Positions 7,626-20,288 of a stretch of DNA of 20,288 nt are shown one piece after another. Origin of the DNA: a virus. The notes beneath the pieces were generated by a model. That model saw nothing but the letters and a program-made list of their open reading frames with translations, made no database searches and was not told the DNA's origin. Numbering within the stretch: the stretch's first letter is position 1; each line of letters opens with the position of its first letter. The stretch spans positions 1 through 20,288 of IMG/VR virus record IMGVR_UViG_3300009149_000373; one strand, written 5' to 3'. A program made the position numbers and the translations under genes.

Positions 7626-7748
7626 TTACAAATTTAGCCAACATAATATGCGGTATTTTCGGAATTCGGATTTGGCTGAACGTGCTAAAAATTAAAAAAT
7701 CAATATAAATTAAGAACGAATCAGGTTTGGCCAGTATAGAAAACTTAG

Positions 7749-7777
7749 TTGACATTTATCCAAAACTTATATACATT
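7749..7777 (+). promoter_or_regulatory. Promoter of parA
   Basis: TTGACA (7749-7754), 17-base spacer, TACATT (7772-7777), then AAGGGAG and the ATG at 7801. Divergent from the promoter at 7597-7625; the 120 bases between them show no gene. Confidence 0.55.
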
Positions 7778-7800
7778 TATTTAAAAACAAGGGAGTATAT

Positions 7801-8598
7801 ATGAAAGAATGTAAAATAATCACAATAGCTAATCATAAAGGCGGTGTAGCAAAGACCACTACTGCCATAAATTTAGCAGCTGGAATTTTGGAAGTTGATC
7901 ATAGTTCGCGTGTTCTTTTGATAGATACAGATCCACAATGCAATCTGACTATGGCAATGTTTCCATTTAAAAAGCAGGATTATGAAACTGCATTGACCAT
8001 GATTGATGTATTTTCAAAAAAGGCAATAGATAATGAAATAAAAAAGTCAAACATTAAGGGCGTTGATATAATAGCTAGCCATCAAAATTTGTGTTTAACC
8101 GAAAAAGAAATACTTGGCACACCTAGATCAATAAATGGAATGGGTTCATTTATATCAAAAGGTCATTTAAAAGAGCAATATGATTTTATCATAATAGACA
8201 CGCCGCCTAGCCCCAATTCTCCCTTTACAGTTAGCGCTTTGACTTGCTCTGACTATTATATTCTGTGTATAAAAAGCGAAGATTGTTTTTCATTAGAAGG
8301 CATGGGTCATTTTGAATCACTGGCGCAAGAGGTAATGGAAACAACCAATCCAGAATTAATATTGTTAGGACACGTTCTCACTATGTATGACGGGAGAAAT
8401 AAAACCTGTCAGCTTCAGGAGTCAATCGCGCGATCTAAATATGGTGAATCAGTTTTTAAGTCTATTATTAGAACAAACACCGATATATCAAGAGCAAATG
8501 GTGAAAAGGTATCTATTTTTCAAAGAAATAAATGGGTAAACGGCGCAAAAGATTATCTTGATTTTACTAAAGAGTTTTTGGAAAGAATAAGTAATTAA
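7801..8598 (+). CDS. parA: ParA-type partition ATPase
   Basis: 265 residues. The deviant Walker A box KGGVAKTT (residues 13-20) with the signature lysine K13 and the P-loop lysine K18, the A' box LLIDTDPQCNLT and the Walker B FIIIDTPPS identify a ParA/Soj ATPase. There is no N-terminal HTH, so it is the short form. ParA proteins move plasmid copies along the nucleoid with a centromere-binding partner; the partner here would be the product of the adjacent gene, which starts two bases after this stop. Its presence in phage DNA points to a prophage kept as a plasmid. AAGGGAG precedes the ATG. Confidence 0.95.
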   Translation: MKECKIITIANHKGGVAKTTTAINLAAGILEVDHSSRVLLIDTDPQCNLTMAMFPFKKQDYETALTMIDVFSKKAIDNEIKKSNIKGVDIIASHQNLCLTEKEILGTPRSINGMGSFISKGHLKEQYDFIIIDTPPSPNSPFTVSALTCSDYYILCIKSEDCFSLEGMGHFESLAQEVMETTNPELILLGHVLTMYDGRNKTCQLQESIARSKYGESVFKSIIRTNTDISRANGEKVSIFQRNKWVNGAKDYLDFTKEFLERISN

Positions 8599-8599
8599 A

Positions 8600-9781
8600 A
8601 TGAATAATGATGCTTTAAATAAAGAGCTTAAAGATAGCCTTGATTTTACAACAGGCGTTTTTTCATCTCAAAAAAAATCATCTATATTAGGTTTGATTAA
8701 AACTGAAAACATCGACATCGATACAACACCGATACAACATAGTAACAACATAGATACGACAAGCACGATGACATCGATACAACACCGATACAACATAGAT
8801 ACAAAACCGATACAACATAGATACAACATAGATACAGGGTGCGATACAAGCTCCGCTACAACTCCGATACAACATAGATACAACATAGATACGAAACAAG
8901 CCTCTTTTCATGATATTGGTGGCAATGAAAAAACCATCCTTATGATGTTTAATGATATCTGTAAAAGAGCTAACAATAATCAGACTGGTCAAATATATTT
9001 AGATAAGCTTTCCGAGTCATTAGAATGTAAGAAGGAGTCCGCACGAATGGCCTTAAACCGGCTTGTAACAAAGGGATGTATAAAAAGGATTAAATCATAT
9101 AAGGGTAGACCCGGCTGGACTATATACGAAATGAACCATAAAACAAGGAATGAAATACTTGATTTTGAGAGAAACCACGAATCACAACATAGATACAACA
9201 TAGATACAACACCGATACAACATAGTAGCAACATAGATACAGTGTGCGCTACGGGGTGCGATACAAGATCCCCCTATAATAATAAAACTCTTAATAAAGA
9301 TATTATTATTATTCTTAATACAGACGAATTAAATGCGCTCGGTGTTCACTTCGGTAAATCACAGGCCGCGCAATTAACGGCGCTTGGTATATCAGAATTA
9401 TCAGCACAGGCATCAATTGACGCTTTTGTTCACGATTTAAACAATTGGAGTATGGCTAGTGATGGTAAATTTAATAAACGCGCAAATATCGCATATTTGA
9501 TGGGTGCGTTTAGAAACAGTGGCGAGTACACGGCAGTTACACCCGGATTTGAAAGCATTGAAGAAATGGCGATAAGGGAGCAAGCAGAAGCCATTTTGAA
9601 AAAACAAGAGCGCACAAAGCGTGATAAGGCGGTGATTTCAGAAGATGCATTTGAGAACTGGTATGAAAAAATAGATAATGAAAGTTTAATAAAAGCTGTT
9701 CCTGGATTTAATGGGGTTCGTAATGGGGGAATCAAGAGGTTCGCCAAGGCTTATTTTATGGAGGATGTTTATGATGGATAG
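8600..9781 (+). CDS. Winged-helix replication/partition protein with internally encoded iterons
   Basis: 393 residues. Residues about 108-180 (NEKTILMMFNDICKRANNNQ...SARMALNRLVTKGCIKRIKS) form a winged helix. On either side lie linkers (about 38-100 and 194-224) made of the motif TPIQHRYNIDT, encoded by 11-bp DNA repeats. The C-terminal 150 residues (KFNKRANIAYLMGAFRNSG...) resemble the ends of phage and plasmid replication proteins. Directly after parA, it could be the replication initiator, the centromere-binding ParB equivalent, or both. The repeats probably are its own binding sites. Which role applies cannot be decided from sequence. Confidence 0.75.
   Translation: MNNDALNKELKDSLDFTTGVFSSQKKSSILGLIKTENIDIDTTPIQHSNNIDTTSTMTSIQHRYNIDTKPIQHRYNIDTGCDTSSATTPIQHRYNIDTKQASFHDIGGNEKTILMMFNDICKRANNNQTGQIYLDKLSESLECKKESARMALNRLVTKGCIKRIKSYKGRPGWTIYEMNHKTRNEILDFERNHESQHRYNIDTTPIQHSSNIDTVCATGCDTRSPYNNKTLNKDIIIILNTDELNALGVHFGKSQAAQLTALGISELSAQASIDAFVHDLNNWSMASDGKFNKRANIAYLMGAFRNSGEYTAVTPGFESIEEMAIREQAEAILKKQERTKRDKAVISEDAFENWYEKIDNESLIKAVPGFNGVRNGGIKRFAKAYFMEDVYDG
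8711..8898 (+). repeat. Iteron cluster 1 (11-bp unit GATACAACATA)
   Basis: About 15 tandem or near-tandem copies of an 11-bp unit, best copies GATACAACATA and GATACAACACC, with weaker ones such as GATACAGGG and GCTACAACT. The period is one helical turn, so all sites face one side of the DNA. Typical of iteron origins or centromeres. Confidence 0.85.
9181..9272 (+). repeat. Iteron cluster 2 (same 11-bp unit)
   Basis: About eight copies of the same unit in the second linker of the gene. GGGTGCGATACAAG followed by (A/C)TCC occurs near the end of this cluster and also inside cluster 1, so the two clusters are related by duplication. An AT-rich stretch follows. Confidence 0.85.
9272..9322. other. 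AT-rich stretch beside the iterons, possible DNA unwinding element
   Basis: After cluster 2 the sequence becomes almost pure A/T, with ATAATAATA and TATTATTAT as inverted arms. Iteron block followed by an AT-rich block is the usual order of a plasmid origin. It also encodes NNKTLNKDIIIIL of the protein, so it is coding as well. Confidence 0.45.
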
Positions 9782-17982: not shown

Positions 17983-18945
17983 CTAACAAATTTCTTCATT
18001 AGCTAAAACATATGCCATCTGCTTAACCAAGCCACTGTTAATCGAGATATTTGTGGCGCTTGGGCAGTCCCTAGAAACCGATTCTCTGGCTTTTCTTAAA
18101 ATTCTTAAGCGATCCCTTTCTGTTAATTTATTAAAGGCATCTCGCCTCCGCTTATATTGCTCTGATCGAGCCAAATTTTTAACCTCACGATCTTTCTCGA
18201 AGTCTTCATTGGTCCTTGTGTCAATTTCTTTCAAAACCTCGTTATCGGCTAAATTTCTAGCCTGTTTTATTAGACTAGAAATTTCATGATCTTTGTATCC
18301 CCCTTGTAGACCATTGATCATGCATGAAACATAGCTGTCAGGGTCTTTTAGGCCAGATACAGAATTTGATTTAATCTTAGCGATGTTGAAACAAAAGTTT
18401 AAATTCGACTGACAAAACTCAACTGGATTTATTAAAAATTCCTCGTTTTTAAAAATCTCCAAAAAAGACGACGACGACATAAGCAAAGTGTCGTCGTCGT
18501 CTTTTTTATTAGTATTAATATTATTTATAGTATTAATACTAATCTTCTCTTCTCTTCTCTGTCGCGTTACGTAACTGTTCGGTAACGCGTTACATTCTTT
18601 ATTATCAATTTTTTCTAATTTATTTATTTCATTGTTTTTAACTAGATTTATTGATCTATGTTTTCTGACACGTTCTTTTGTCTTGGCTTTTTTATCAGCT
18701 ATGTCTTGAGCATCTCTTAAGACCTTCTTAAGGATGTCTTGAAGGTCTCTTGAGTGGTTTATAAGCTTTTTTTCAAGACTTTTAATGGTCTTATGATGGG
18801 CTACTCCAAGCAGTTGCTTGTCTGTTGGAACGTGGCTTAATCTAGATGTTAAAGCCATGATATTGATCCATGCTCTAAACTCTTTATCTGACAGGTCGTT
18901 ATACTCCCAGAGAATGTGATTCGTCTTAACTTTTATCCAATCCAT
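17983..18945 (-). CDS. Phage replication initiator (lambda O / replisome organiser-like)
   Basis: 320 residues. The N-terminus MDWIKVKTNHILWEYNDLSD with AWINIMALTSRLSHVPTDKQ is the winged-helix opening of phage replisome organisers. KERVRKHRS and VTRQRREEK mark the usual hydrophilic linker (about 90-165), and the C-terminal half is helical. Such proteins bind the origin and recruit the host helicase. The origin often lies inside the linker-coding part, and here that part (18461-18593) holds three strong inverted repeats. TAGGAGG precedes the ATG. Confidence 0.75.
   Translation of the reverse strand: MDWIKVKTNHILWEYNDLSDKEFRAWINIMALTSRLSHVPTDKQLLGVAHHKTIKSLEKKLINHSRDLQDILKKVLRDAQDIADKKAKTKERVRKHRSINLVKNNEINKLEKIDNKECNALPNSYVTRQRREEKISINTINNINTNKKDDDDTLLMSSSSFLEIFKNEEFLINPVEFCQSNLNFCFNIAKIKSNSVSGLKDPDSYVSCMINGLQGGYKDHEISSLIKQARNLADNEVLKEIDTRTNEDFEKDREVKNLARSEQYKRRRDAFNKLTERDRLRILRKARESVSRDCPSATNISINSGLVKQMAYVLANEEIC
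18461..18507. repeat. Perfect 19-bp hairpin inside the replication gene
   Basis: AAAAAAGACGACGACGACA (18461-18479), 9-base loop, then its exact complement (18489-18507). It encodes DDDDTLLMSSSS. It has GC arms flanked by A6 and T6, so it also looks like a terminator in both directions. Confidence 0.85.
18508..18543. repeat. Perfect 13-bp AT inverted repeat next to the hairpin
   Basis: ATTAGTATTAATA (18508-18520) and TATTAATACTAAT (18531-18543) with a 10-base loop, directly abutting the previous hairpin. The block is nearly all A/T, a candidate unwinding region. Confidence 0.8.
18563..18593. repeat. Inverted repeat CGCGTTAC / GTAACGCG
   Basis: Perfect 8-bp arms at 18563-18570 and 18582-18589; the right arm also lies in the 12-bp palindrome GTAACGCGTTAC (18582-18593). 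Between this and the AT block is a TCTTC tandem (18543-18560). Together the cluster resembles a phage origin. Confidence 0.7.
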
Positions 18946-19214: not shown

Positions 19215-20138
19215 TTATGCCGGGTTCAGTTCATCTACGTTTATTGTTTGAATTGCTGATGCTCTTTTCAGTCCTGTTTTGCATATTCGGTCATTATAAA
19301 ATTGACATTCTAGGCAGTGACTATAGTTAGCTGTACGGAATGGGTCGTCGTAGGAAGCTAAGACCTGTTTAATTATGTCTTCAAACCAAGCGAAGCTCTT
19401 TTCAGTGGGCATAATATGAAACAGCTTTGTCAAAGGTGGTTTTTCAATCATGTGTTCAATCGTTCCTGATTCAACTACGAGGTAGTAAATTGGCAGCACC
19501 TCGCCCGTTTTCTTCGCAATTATGTATGGATAAGCAAAAGCCTGAAGATAGTCTTTCATCGCGCTTTTTCCATCCCATGGCTTTATTCCAAACAGATCGT
19601 TATCATTCCCGAAGCCCCATATCTTTGGGATTGATCCTGTAAATTTTAAATCAATGATCCCTTTGTATTCTACGCCGTGATATTCTATTGTCCCAATATA
19701 GTCTGCCTCTCCGGTTAGCTTGAATTTATTGGTAGTTAGGGATAGTTTTTGAAATGGCTTTCCTTTTTTAAATATTGGCTTGACGTGTTGCGCATAAATC
19801 TTGGTTGCATCAAGTGTTTTTTGCGATATACCTTGACAAATATTCTTCCATTCGTGCTCGTCCTTTATTTCGTCAAACACATAAGATTCAAATATATTGC
19901 CCATTTTCATTGGTTTTGTTTGAATAAAGTCATTATTTAGGCACTGATGATATTTTTCTTGGCAGTCAAAGAAGTTTTTAATGTTTGACTGGCGAAGCTT
20001 TTTTAATGGCGAATATAGCTTTTGATGAACTCGTTGCTTTGATATCCCATATTTATCACCGATCCATTGAAATGTTTTCTTTGGCTTTTGGTTTCTATAT
20101 TGAAGTATCTTTTCGCTAGTTAGGTTAATCATATTCAT
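19215..20138 (-). CDS. HTH plus PD-(D/E)XK nuclease, Cas4/AddB-like
   Basis: 307 residues from ATG at 20138. Residues 22-50 (FQWIGDKYGISKQRVHQKLY then KKLRQ) resemble sigma-70 region 4 HTH. The nuclease core follows: E84 in MGNIFE, D146 in TGEADYIG, D163-x-K165 in IIDLKF, and the Q199-Y203 motif of RecB-type exonucleases. C275, C278 and C286 (HCLECQF...RICKTG) with C59 or C66 fit the iron-sulphur cluster of Cas4/AddB enzymes. Likely a phage recombination or end-processing nuclease. The frame continues upstream through a hexamer repeat coding for Ala-Met/Ala-Leu; that extension is judged not to be protein, but the ribosome site for 20138 is weak, so the start is uncertain. Confidence 0.8.
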   Translation of the reverse strand: MNMINLTSEKILQYRNQKPKKTFQWIGDKYGISKQRVHQKLYSPLKKLRQSNIKNFFDCQEKYHQCLNNDFIQTKPMKMGNIFESYVFDEIKDEHEWKNICQGISQKTLDATKIYAQHVKPIFKKGKPFQKLSLTTNKFKLTGEADYIGTIEYHGVEYKGIIDLKFTGSIPKIWGFGNDNDLFGIKPWDGKSAMKDYLQAFAYPYIIAKKTGEVLPIYYLVVESGTIEHMIEKPPLTKLFHIMPTEKSFAWFEDIIKQVLASYDDPFRTANYSHCLECQFYNDRICKTGLKRASAIQTINVDELNPA

Positions 20139-20142
20139 TCCC

Positions 20143-20288
20143 GCCAGAGCCAGAGCCAGAGCCATCGCCATAGCCATAGCCAGAGCCAGAGCCAGGGCCA
20201 GAGCCAGGGCCAGAGCCATCGCCATAGCCATAGCCATAGCCAGAGCCATCGCCATAGCCATCGCCATCGCCAGAGCCATAGCCATAGC
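20143..20288. repeat. Hexanucleotide repeat array, at least 24 copies
   Basis: GCCATA, GCCAGA, GCCATC and GCCAGG hexamers in mixed order from 20143 to the window edge without a break. GC-rich against an AT-rich background. It lies directly upstream of the nuclease gene, and copy number changes would alter its promoter spacing or an N-terminal extension by two residues per unit. Confidence 0.9.

Follow-up and report, generated by a model that had tools for sequence, protein, structure and literature searches.

The locus described here raises the question of why the gene that follows parA in a phage genome should carry an 11-bp direct repeat on both sides of its DNA-binding domain, whether the DNA or the encoded peptide is being kept, and what such an arrangement might serve. 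The window, which is the whole stretch of DNA analysed and corresponds to the 20,288-base IMG/VR virus record IMGVR_UViG_3300009149_000373, contains phage tail and baseplate genes together with a tyrosine integrase. On its plus strand, parA (7801..8598) encodes a Walker-type partition ATPase with the motif KGGVAKTT (Pfam AAA_31, 5.7e-39; phrog_164 ParA-like partition protein, 1.4e-52) and is separated by a single base from an ORF (8600..9781, plus strand) for a putative centromere-binding-type protein of 393 aa. This protein consists of an N-terminal tail, an array-encoded linker, a winged helix, a second array-encoded linker and a C-terminal domain. The tail (8600..8710) is a candidate ParA-contact segment, given that relatives have short basic or hydrophobic N-termini that have been exchanged independently of the winged helix-turn-helix (wHTH). 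The wHTH itself (8906..9169), with the approximate recognition helix ESARMALNRLV and the wing GRPGW, was supported by AlphaFold2 (pLDDT mostly >90), by profile matches to wHTH entries and by Foldseek, which returned winged helices including the pNOB8 centromere-binding protein 4rs8. The C-terminal domain (9314..9778) is predicted to be all-helical with a long helix (AlphaFold2 mean pLDDT 90) and had neither a fold match in the PDB (Foldseek best E 1.9) nor a relative by sequence. The protein and its family have no model of their own in Pfam or NCBIfam, no ParB-family match was seen in either, and no match to Rfam was found. The locus has the composition of a type I partition system, in that one operon encodes both a Walker ParA ATPase and a DNA-binding partner. 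The arrays are direct repeats, in contrast to the palindromic parS of type Ia ParB (ParB/Spo0J). A 21-22-bp repeat upstream of parA (7740-7788) was discarded as it consists of merely two imperfect copies.

The ORF contains 18 units of approximately AACATAGATAC at 11-bp steps, of which 13 precede the winged helix (5′ array, 8714..8892) and five follow it (3′ array, 9186..9240), supporting the proposal of the first-pass annotation, made from the letters alone, that the gene holds its own iteron array as the linkers flanking the winged helix. The period of 11 stated there for a unit written as GATACAACATA was also recovered (Tandem Repeats Finder: 15.9 and 5.3 copies for the two arrays), but the array is less regular than that form implies, with a number of imperfect copies and with occasional gaps of 23 and 35 bp that break the 11-bp beat. 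As 11 cannot be divided by three, the reading phase changes from one unit to the next, and the window arrays indeed make use of all three phases, as had been claimed. A perfect array of the window unit would place an in-frame TAG every 33 bases. In none of the five units lying in the phase where it would stop translation is TAG present, CCG or TCG being found instead, and it is kept in 11 of the 13 units of the other two phases.

We compared the arrays with synonymous alternatives. When the linker peptides were re-encoded with codons drawn from the window's other genes, the 11-bp score reached a mean of 6.0 and a maximum of 27 in 1000 draws, against an observed score of 78. Codon choice in the arrays follows the DNA unit and not the usage of the phage, with AAC for all nine Asn (35% elsewhere), TAC for all four Tyr (19% elsewhere in the phage) and CCG for all four Pro (10% elsewhere in the phage). 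Permuting the gene's own codons among synonymous positions gave no shuffle out of 500 that reached the observed value, a narrow result for the window gene (maximum 75 versus 76), and most homologues clear the same test by a clear margin. The rest of the record is free of arrays, with two scattered matches in parA and two in the remaining 17.6 kb. The original argument that selection on the protein could not maintain such a pattern was too quick, as an in-frame 33-bp duplication gives it as well; it is the synonymous recoding, never coming near the observed periodicity, that settles the question in favour of the DNA period, as had been asserted, over the peptide. The 11-bp observation is real, and it extends well beyond the window.

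Direct searches of viral contigs and phage records yielded no close relatives of the window protein, and the exact two-unit string had no match in viral contigs, because the unit differs in each relative. The entry point to the family was a single plasmid match, pBdHAGR4 of Bdellovibrio (27% identity), in which the genes are ordered alike and the 11-bp arrays differ in sequence. Starting from pBdHAGR4, we collected 145 plasmid records, chiefly from Piscirickettsia (137) and otherwise from Legionella, Fluoribacter and Bdellovibrio, as well as 34 genome contigs and additional viral contigs, so that parA and a wHTH gene with 11-bp arrays recur in Legionella, Piscirickettsia, Bdellovibrionota and phages. 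Among 42 loci compared, the sole gene families common to nearly all were the array gene (40) and parA (38), adjacent and co-directional. The linkers of the parA-linked members contain 11-bp, rarely 12-bp, arrays that score above all 500 synonymous shuffles in most cases; the negative control consisted of wHTH relatives from marine archaea and Verrucomicrobia, next to which no parA was found, and these lack arrays. An 11-bp period that persists alongside varying linker residues, the outcome predicted in the first-pass annotation, was seen in dozens of homologues, and the refuting outcome, a conserved peptide repeat with the DNA unit destroyed, was not seen.

A fresh set of members was gathered with the wHTH profile alone from Legionellaceae (27/140 genomes) and one Bdellovibrionota class (12/144). 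The strongest period was 11 or 12 in 25 of these 28 new members, and in 14 of the 28 the 11-bp score exceeded all 300 shuffles; two loci with no recognised parA (L159 and L161) were without an array. Family-wide, stop triplets were found in 0/81 units in the stop phase versus 220/304 in the other phases; the first figure is forced by the open frame, and only the second, for triplets kept outside the stop phase, counts as evidence. Many loci share ancestry, and the family counts are therefore not all independent.

Other repeat layouts were seen within the family. One viral gene (L034:2527-3834) has a 12-bp unit (AAACCTAGAGAT) that is read in frame as a KPRD peptide repeat and represents a natural in-frame alternative to the 11-bp beat. 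In genes from Legionella and Piscirickettsia (L049, L051, L053, L065 and L020), higher-order repeats of 102 or 120 bp contain clusters of two to four 11-bp units, and the dominant higher-order periods in the genes of these two genera are multiples of three.

The units themselves vary in an ordered way. Across 25 distinct units, the outer positions are near constant (AAA followed by C or G, and C in last place) and the middle is variable, each lineage having its own unit on the common frame AAA[C/G]NNNNNAC. The 5′ and 3′ arrays within a gene agree at 10.3 of 11 positions, compared with 7.1 between genes and a maximum of 8.55 in 10,000 permutations. A group of viral contigs represents natural domain swaps, in which the block of array, wHTH and array differs and the DNA for the N-terminus and the C-terminal domain is nearly identical: L079 and L093 are 95.5% and 97.1% alike at the nucleotide level in these two parts, but their wHTHs are 35% identical and their units different. 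The reverse is seen for L029 and L031, with wHTHs 96% identical and the same unit, but N-termini 28% and C-terminal domains 50% identical. In one further gene (L100:8608-10041, gene positions 304-367), the units of its own type are preceded at the array edge by roughly three L029-type units and two L093-type units, possibly a fossil of earlier specificities.

Recognition-helix residues co-vary with the variable half of the unit. The dipeptide KK in this helix goes together with units of the form ..GAGAC (5/5 versus 0/22), and members with the same helix dipeptide have more similar units (permutation p 5e-5, for a dipeptide chosen after inspection). The sole member without the GRG-W wing (L015) is also the sole member without the AAAC core. 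Such co-variation would be expected if the wHTH bound each unit directly. Furthermore, Bdellovibrio HAGR004 harbours four co-resident family plasmids with four different units, as would be expected if the unit sets incompatibility, and in other genomes with two or three members the units likewise differ.

Of the two functions that the first-pass annotation had left side by side, an embedded origin or an embedded centromere, we infer the second, for which non-coding units upstream of parA, separate initiators and parA linkage speak; the origin finds less support. In nine of 28 loci, from Legionella, Fluoribacter, Piscirickettsiaceae and one other gammaproteobacterial locus, 8-18 further copies of the gene's unit were located in the non-coding DNA ahead of parA, at a distance of no more than 700 nt, and other places had few copies or none. 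Plasmid centromeres are usually situated in such a position, before the operon (PMC5016525, PMC9426499). The Legionella-type proteins end after the wHTH and have neither a further domain nor a hairpin of the kind described below. On pLD-TEX-KL (L072:25883-26387) and p3PS4 (L074:6267-6525), whose array proteins also end there, long intergenic 11-bp arrays are located between parA and a divergent gene for a separate O-like Rep initiator, and these are unannotated centromere candidates. A peat phage (G003) with the longer form of the protein encodes its own O-like initiator as well as RecT and an exonuclease.

We consider it probable, judging from sequence and gene order, that parA and the array gene form a type I-like partition module, its centromere lying within the gene that encodes the centromere-binding protein. 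In the window, ParA and the protein of 8600-9781 would constitute a plasmid-type partition module, probably one that maintains the prophage outside the chromosome. Each 11-bp unit would be bound by the winged helix; with units about one helical turn apart and on the same face, many copies of the protein could stack into a partition complex, which ParA would move via the protein's N-terminal tail, the tail being suggestive of such a contact. The whole centromere of this phage, about 18 units, would then be situated inside coding sequence and translated as two flexible linkers around the winged helix, with the units in the TAG-stop phase patched by CCG or TCG, and the identity of the unit would set incompatibility.

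Alternatively, the array protein could act as an initiator in the manner of the RepA_N Rep of pSK41 or of lambda O, with the wHTH binding iterons in an embedded replication origin, the hairpin after the 3′ array serving for unwinding or priming and the C-terminal domain recruiting the host replication machinery. The order of parts is that of pSK41 Rep, with a wHTH, an ori-encoded linker and a C-terminal domain, for which chimeric genes are also known (PMC5703833), and the AT-rich hairpin lies directly after the 3′ array, an AT-rich stretch being found beside the array in part of the family. The wHTH has weak matches to initiator profiles (phrog_186, 270, 428 and 678; best E 3.7e-5 for the window), and the matches to generic wHTH families are of similar strength. 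No other Rep was recognised on pBdHAGR5 or its near relative pBdHAGR4, so the array protein could be the initiator there, and Pfam recognised no separate Rep among the proteins scanned from pBdHAGR2, 3 and 5, which is not proof of absence. The GC-skew minimum of pBdHAGR2 is within approximately 2.5 kb of the array locus, but that of pLD-TEX-KL falls inside the gene for its O-like initiator, and with significant skew in two of six plasmids the measure is not decisive as a test for origins. DnaA boxes formed no consistent pattern across loci. Together with the separate initiators of pLD-TEX-KL, p3PS4 and the peat phage, the Legionella-type members that lack both C-terminal domain and hairpin, and the near-universal ParA linkage, this makes an embedded origin unlikely as the general explanation; it is possible for the members with a C-terminal domain, which also encode the conserved hairpin. 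That one protein and one array serve both replication and partition in these members, and partition alone in those of the Legionella type, would fit the existence of two protein forms, with and without C-terminal domain and hairpin, that share the same wHTH and array logic, but a phage whose protein includes the C-terminal domain encodes a separate initiator, and we regard such a double role as improbable. Least credible is an ordinary coding tandem repeat, a slippage product either kept for its peptide linker or neutral. Higher-order repeats of 33, 45, 87, 102 and 120 bp, all multiples of three, speak for it, but the period is destroyed by synonymous recoding, the same unit also occurs in non-coding DNA, the 5′ and 3′ arrays agree across an unrelated domain, and the unit changes with the wHTH. 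This explanation is already largely contradicted by the recoding tests and by the arrays in non-coding DNA, and we give it very little credence.

Members with a C-terminal domain often encode a run of the form SSSS..NN..TTTT right after the 3′ array, the DNA of which is a near-constant inverted repeat, TAGTAGTAGT and ACTACTACTA around a short AT-rich loop (for instance L029:3352-3390, L032:3352-3387 and L043:3867-3914, among others). Its folding was stronger than that of synonymous shuffles in ten members (z -2.9 to -7.6), and it is independent of the wHTH cassette, remaining unchanged when the cassette changes. A search of viral contigs with nothing but the hairpin led to 15 family genes or contigs with 11-bp arrays; many other matches from this search were chance trinucleotide repeats and were set aside. 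The window has an AT variant at the equivalent position directly 3′ of the 3′ array, TATAATAATAA...TTATTATTATT (9275..9313, plus strand), which by itself is not beyond chance. The hairpin may serve for unwinding or priming, or may act as a structure in the mRNA.

How does the putative embedded centromere relate to known systems? Type I and Ib partition loci likewise have a Walker ParA gene followed by one for a DNA-binding protein with a short, variable N-terminal tail, and a further point in common is that direct repeats precede the operon in the Legionella-type members. Type Ib loci, as reviewed in PMC5016525, encode small binding proteins and have the centromere ahead of the operon, whereas in the present family DNA binding falls to a winged helix and the gene itself contains the array, in large part or completely. 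The parC centromere of plasmid R1 (type II) also consists of 11-bp repeats, and in ParMRC repeat recognition decides incompatibility (PMC9426499). These are direct repeats bound by a dedicated adaptor, but R1 has an actin-like ParM and a ribbon-helix-helix ParR, and its repeats flank the promoter, outside coding sequence. In pSK41, the wHTH protein Rep has its binding sites in its own gene, where they encode the linker, and chimeric genes occur (PMC5703833). The likeness to the candidate binding sites described here is one of layout alone, as pSK41 has four Rep boxes, present only after an N-terminal wHTH, and a replication function, and belongs to Firmicutes; the RepA_N domain (PF06970) was absent from the Pfam matches of the members scanned. 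The repABC plasmids, with oriV inside repC (PMC3155836), are a further case of a cis-acting maintenance site in the coding sequence of an operon with a ParA-family protein, but repC is without iterons and the site is an origin, not a centromere. The pNOB8 centromere-binding protein (PDB 4rs8) is similar in having a winged helix (TM-score 0.66-0.70 on the target), a structural likeness in a very common fold.

The open-access literature searched gave no precedent for a ParA-linked array of candidate centromere sites that is part of the coding sequence for its own binding protein, is read in all three frames and flanks the DNA-binding domain on either side. As embedded cis-sites are known for origins (RepA_N, repABC) and such a ParA-linked array was not found, the embedded, cassette-swapped centromere would be the new part of a system whose kind, ParA-type partition, is known. 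That the arrangement recurs with other site sequences in plasmids and phages of Legionella, Piscirickettsia, Bdellovibrio and further hosts points towards a family of plasmid-inheritance modules that are self-contained and undescribed. We lean, with some reserve, towards a widespread and undescribed class of partition, or partition-replication, systems in which the gene for the binding protein contains the centromere and reads it in all three frames. The wHTH and array would be exchanged together as a single specificity cassette, set between N- and C-terminal modules that evolve separately, ended by a second embedded DNA or RNA hairpin and allowing plasmids and phages a quick switch of incompatibility group.

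Such a class would offer a maintenance system for plasmids without a recognised one, 137 Piscirickettsia plasmid records matching the family; for the plasmids of P. salmonis LF-89, no iterons had been found and the replication mechanism was not inferable for three of the four (PMC6963756). One stretch of DNA here carries two codes, candidate protein-binding sites repeating every 11 bp and codons every 3 bp, with even the stop codons patched, and the cost of this overlap is therefore measurable. The natural swaps of wHTH and array are, moreover, a ready dataset for studying the code of protein-DNA recognition and the rise of incompatibility groups.

Two further repeats were noticed in the window. 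Inside a minus-strand ORF (17983-18945), 18-bp arms, AAAAAAGACGACGACGAC / GTCGTCGTCGTCTTTTTT, form a perfect inverted repeat around an 11-nt loop (18461-18507; stem folding at -27.7 kcal/mol). The repeat is coding (DDDDTLLMSSSS), and its trinucleotide stem resembles the hairpin style of the iteron genes. The ORF matched no protein family and may be the phage's own replication gene. At the end of the record (20143-20288), another minus-strand ORF (19215-20288), which runs off the record, has about 24 copies of a hexanucleotide (GCCATA/GCCAGA) encoding (AM/AL)n before a PD-(D/E)XK-like protein, apparently a variable repeat in coding sequence that is truncated where the record stops.
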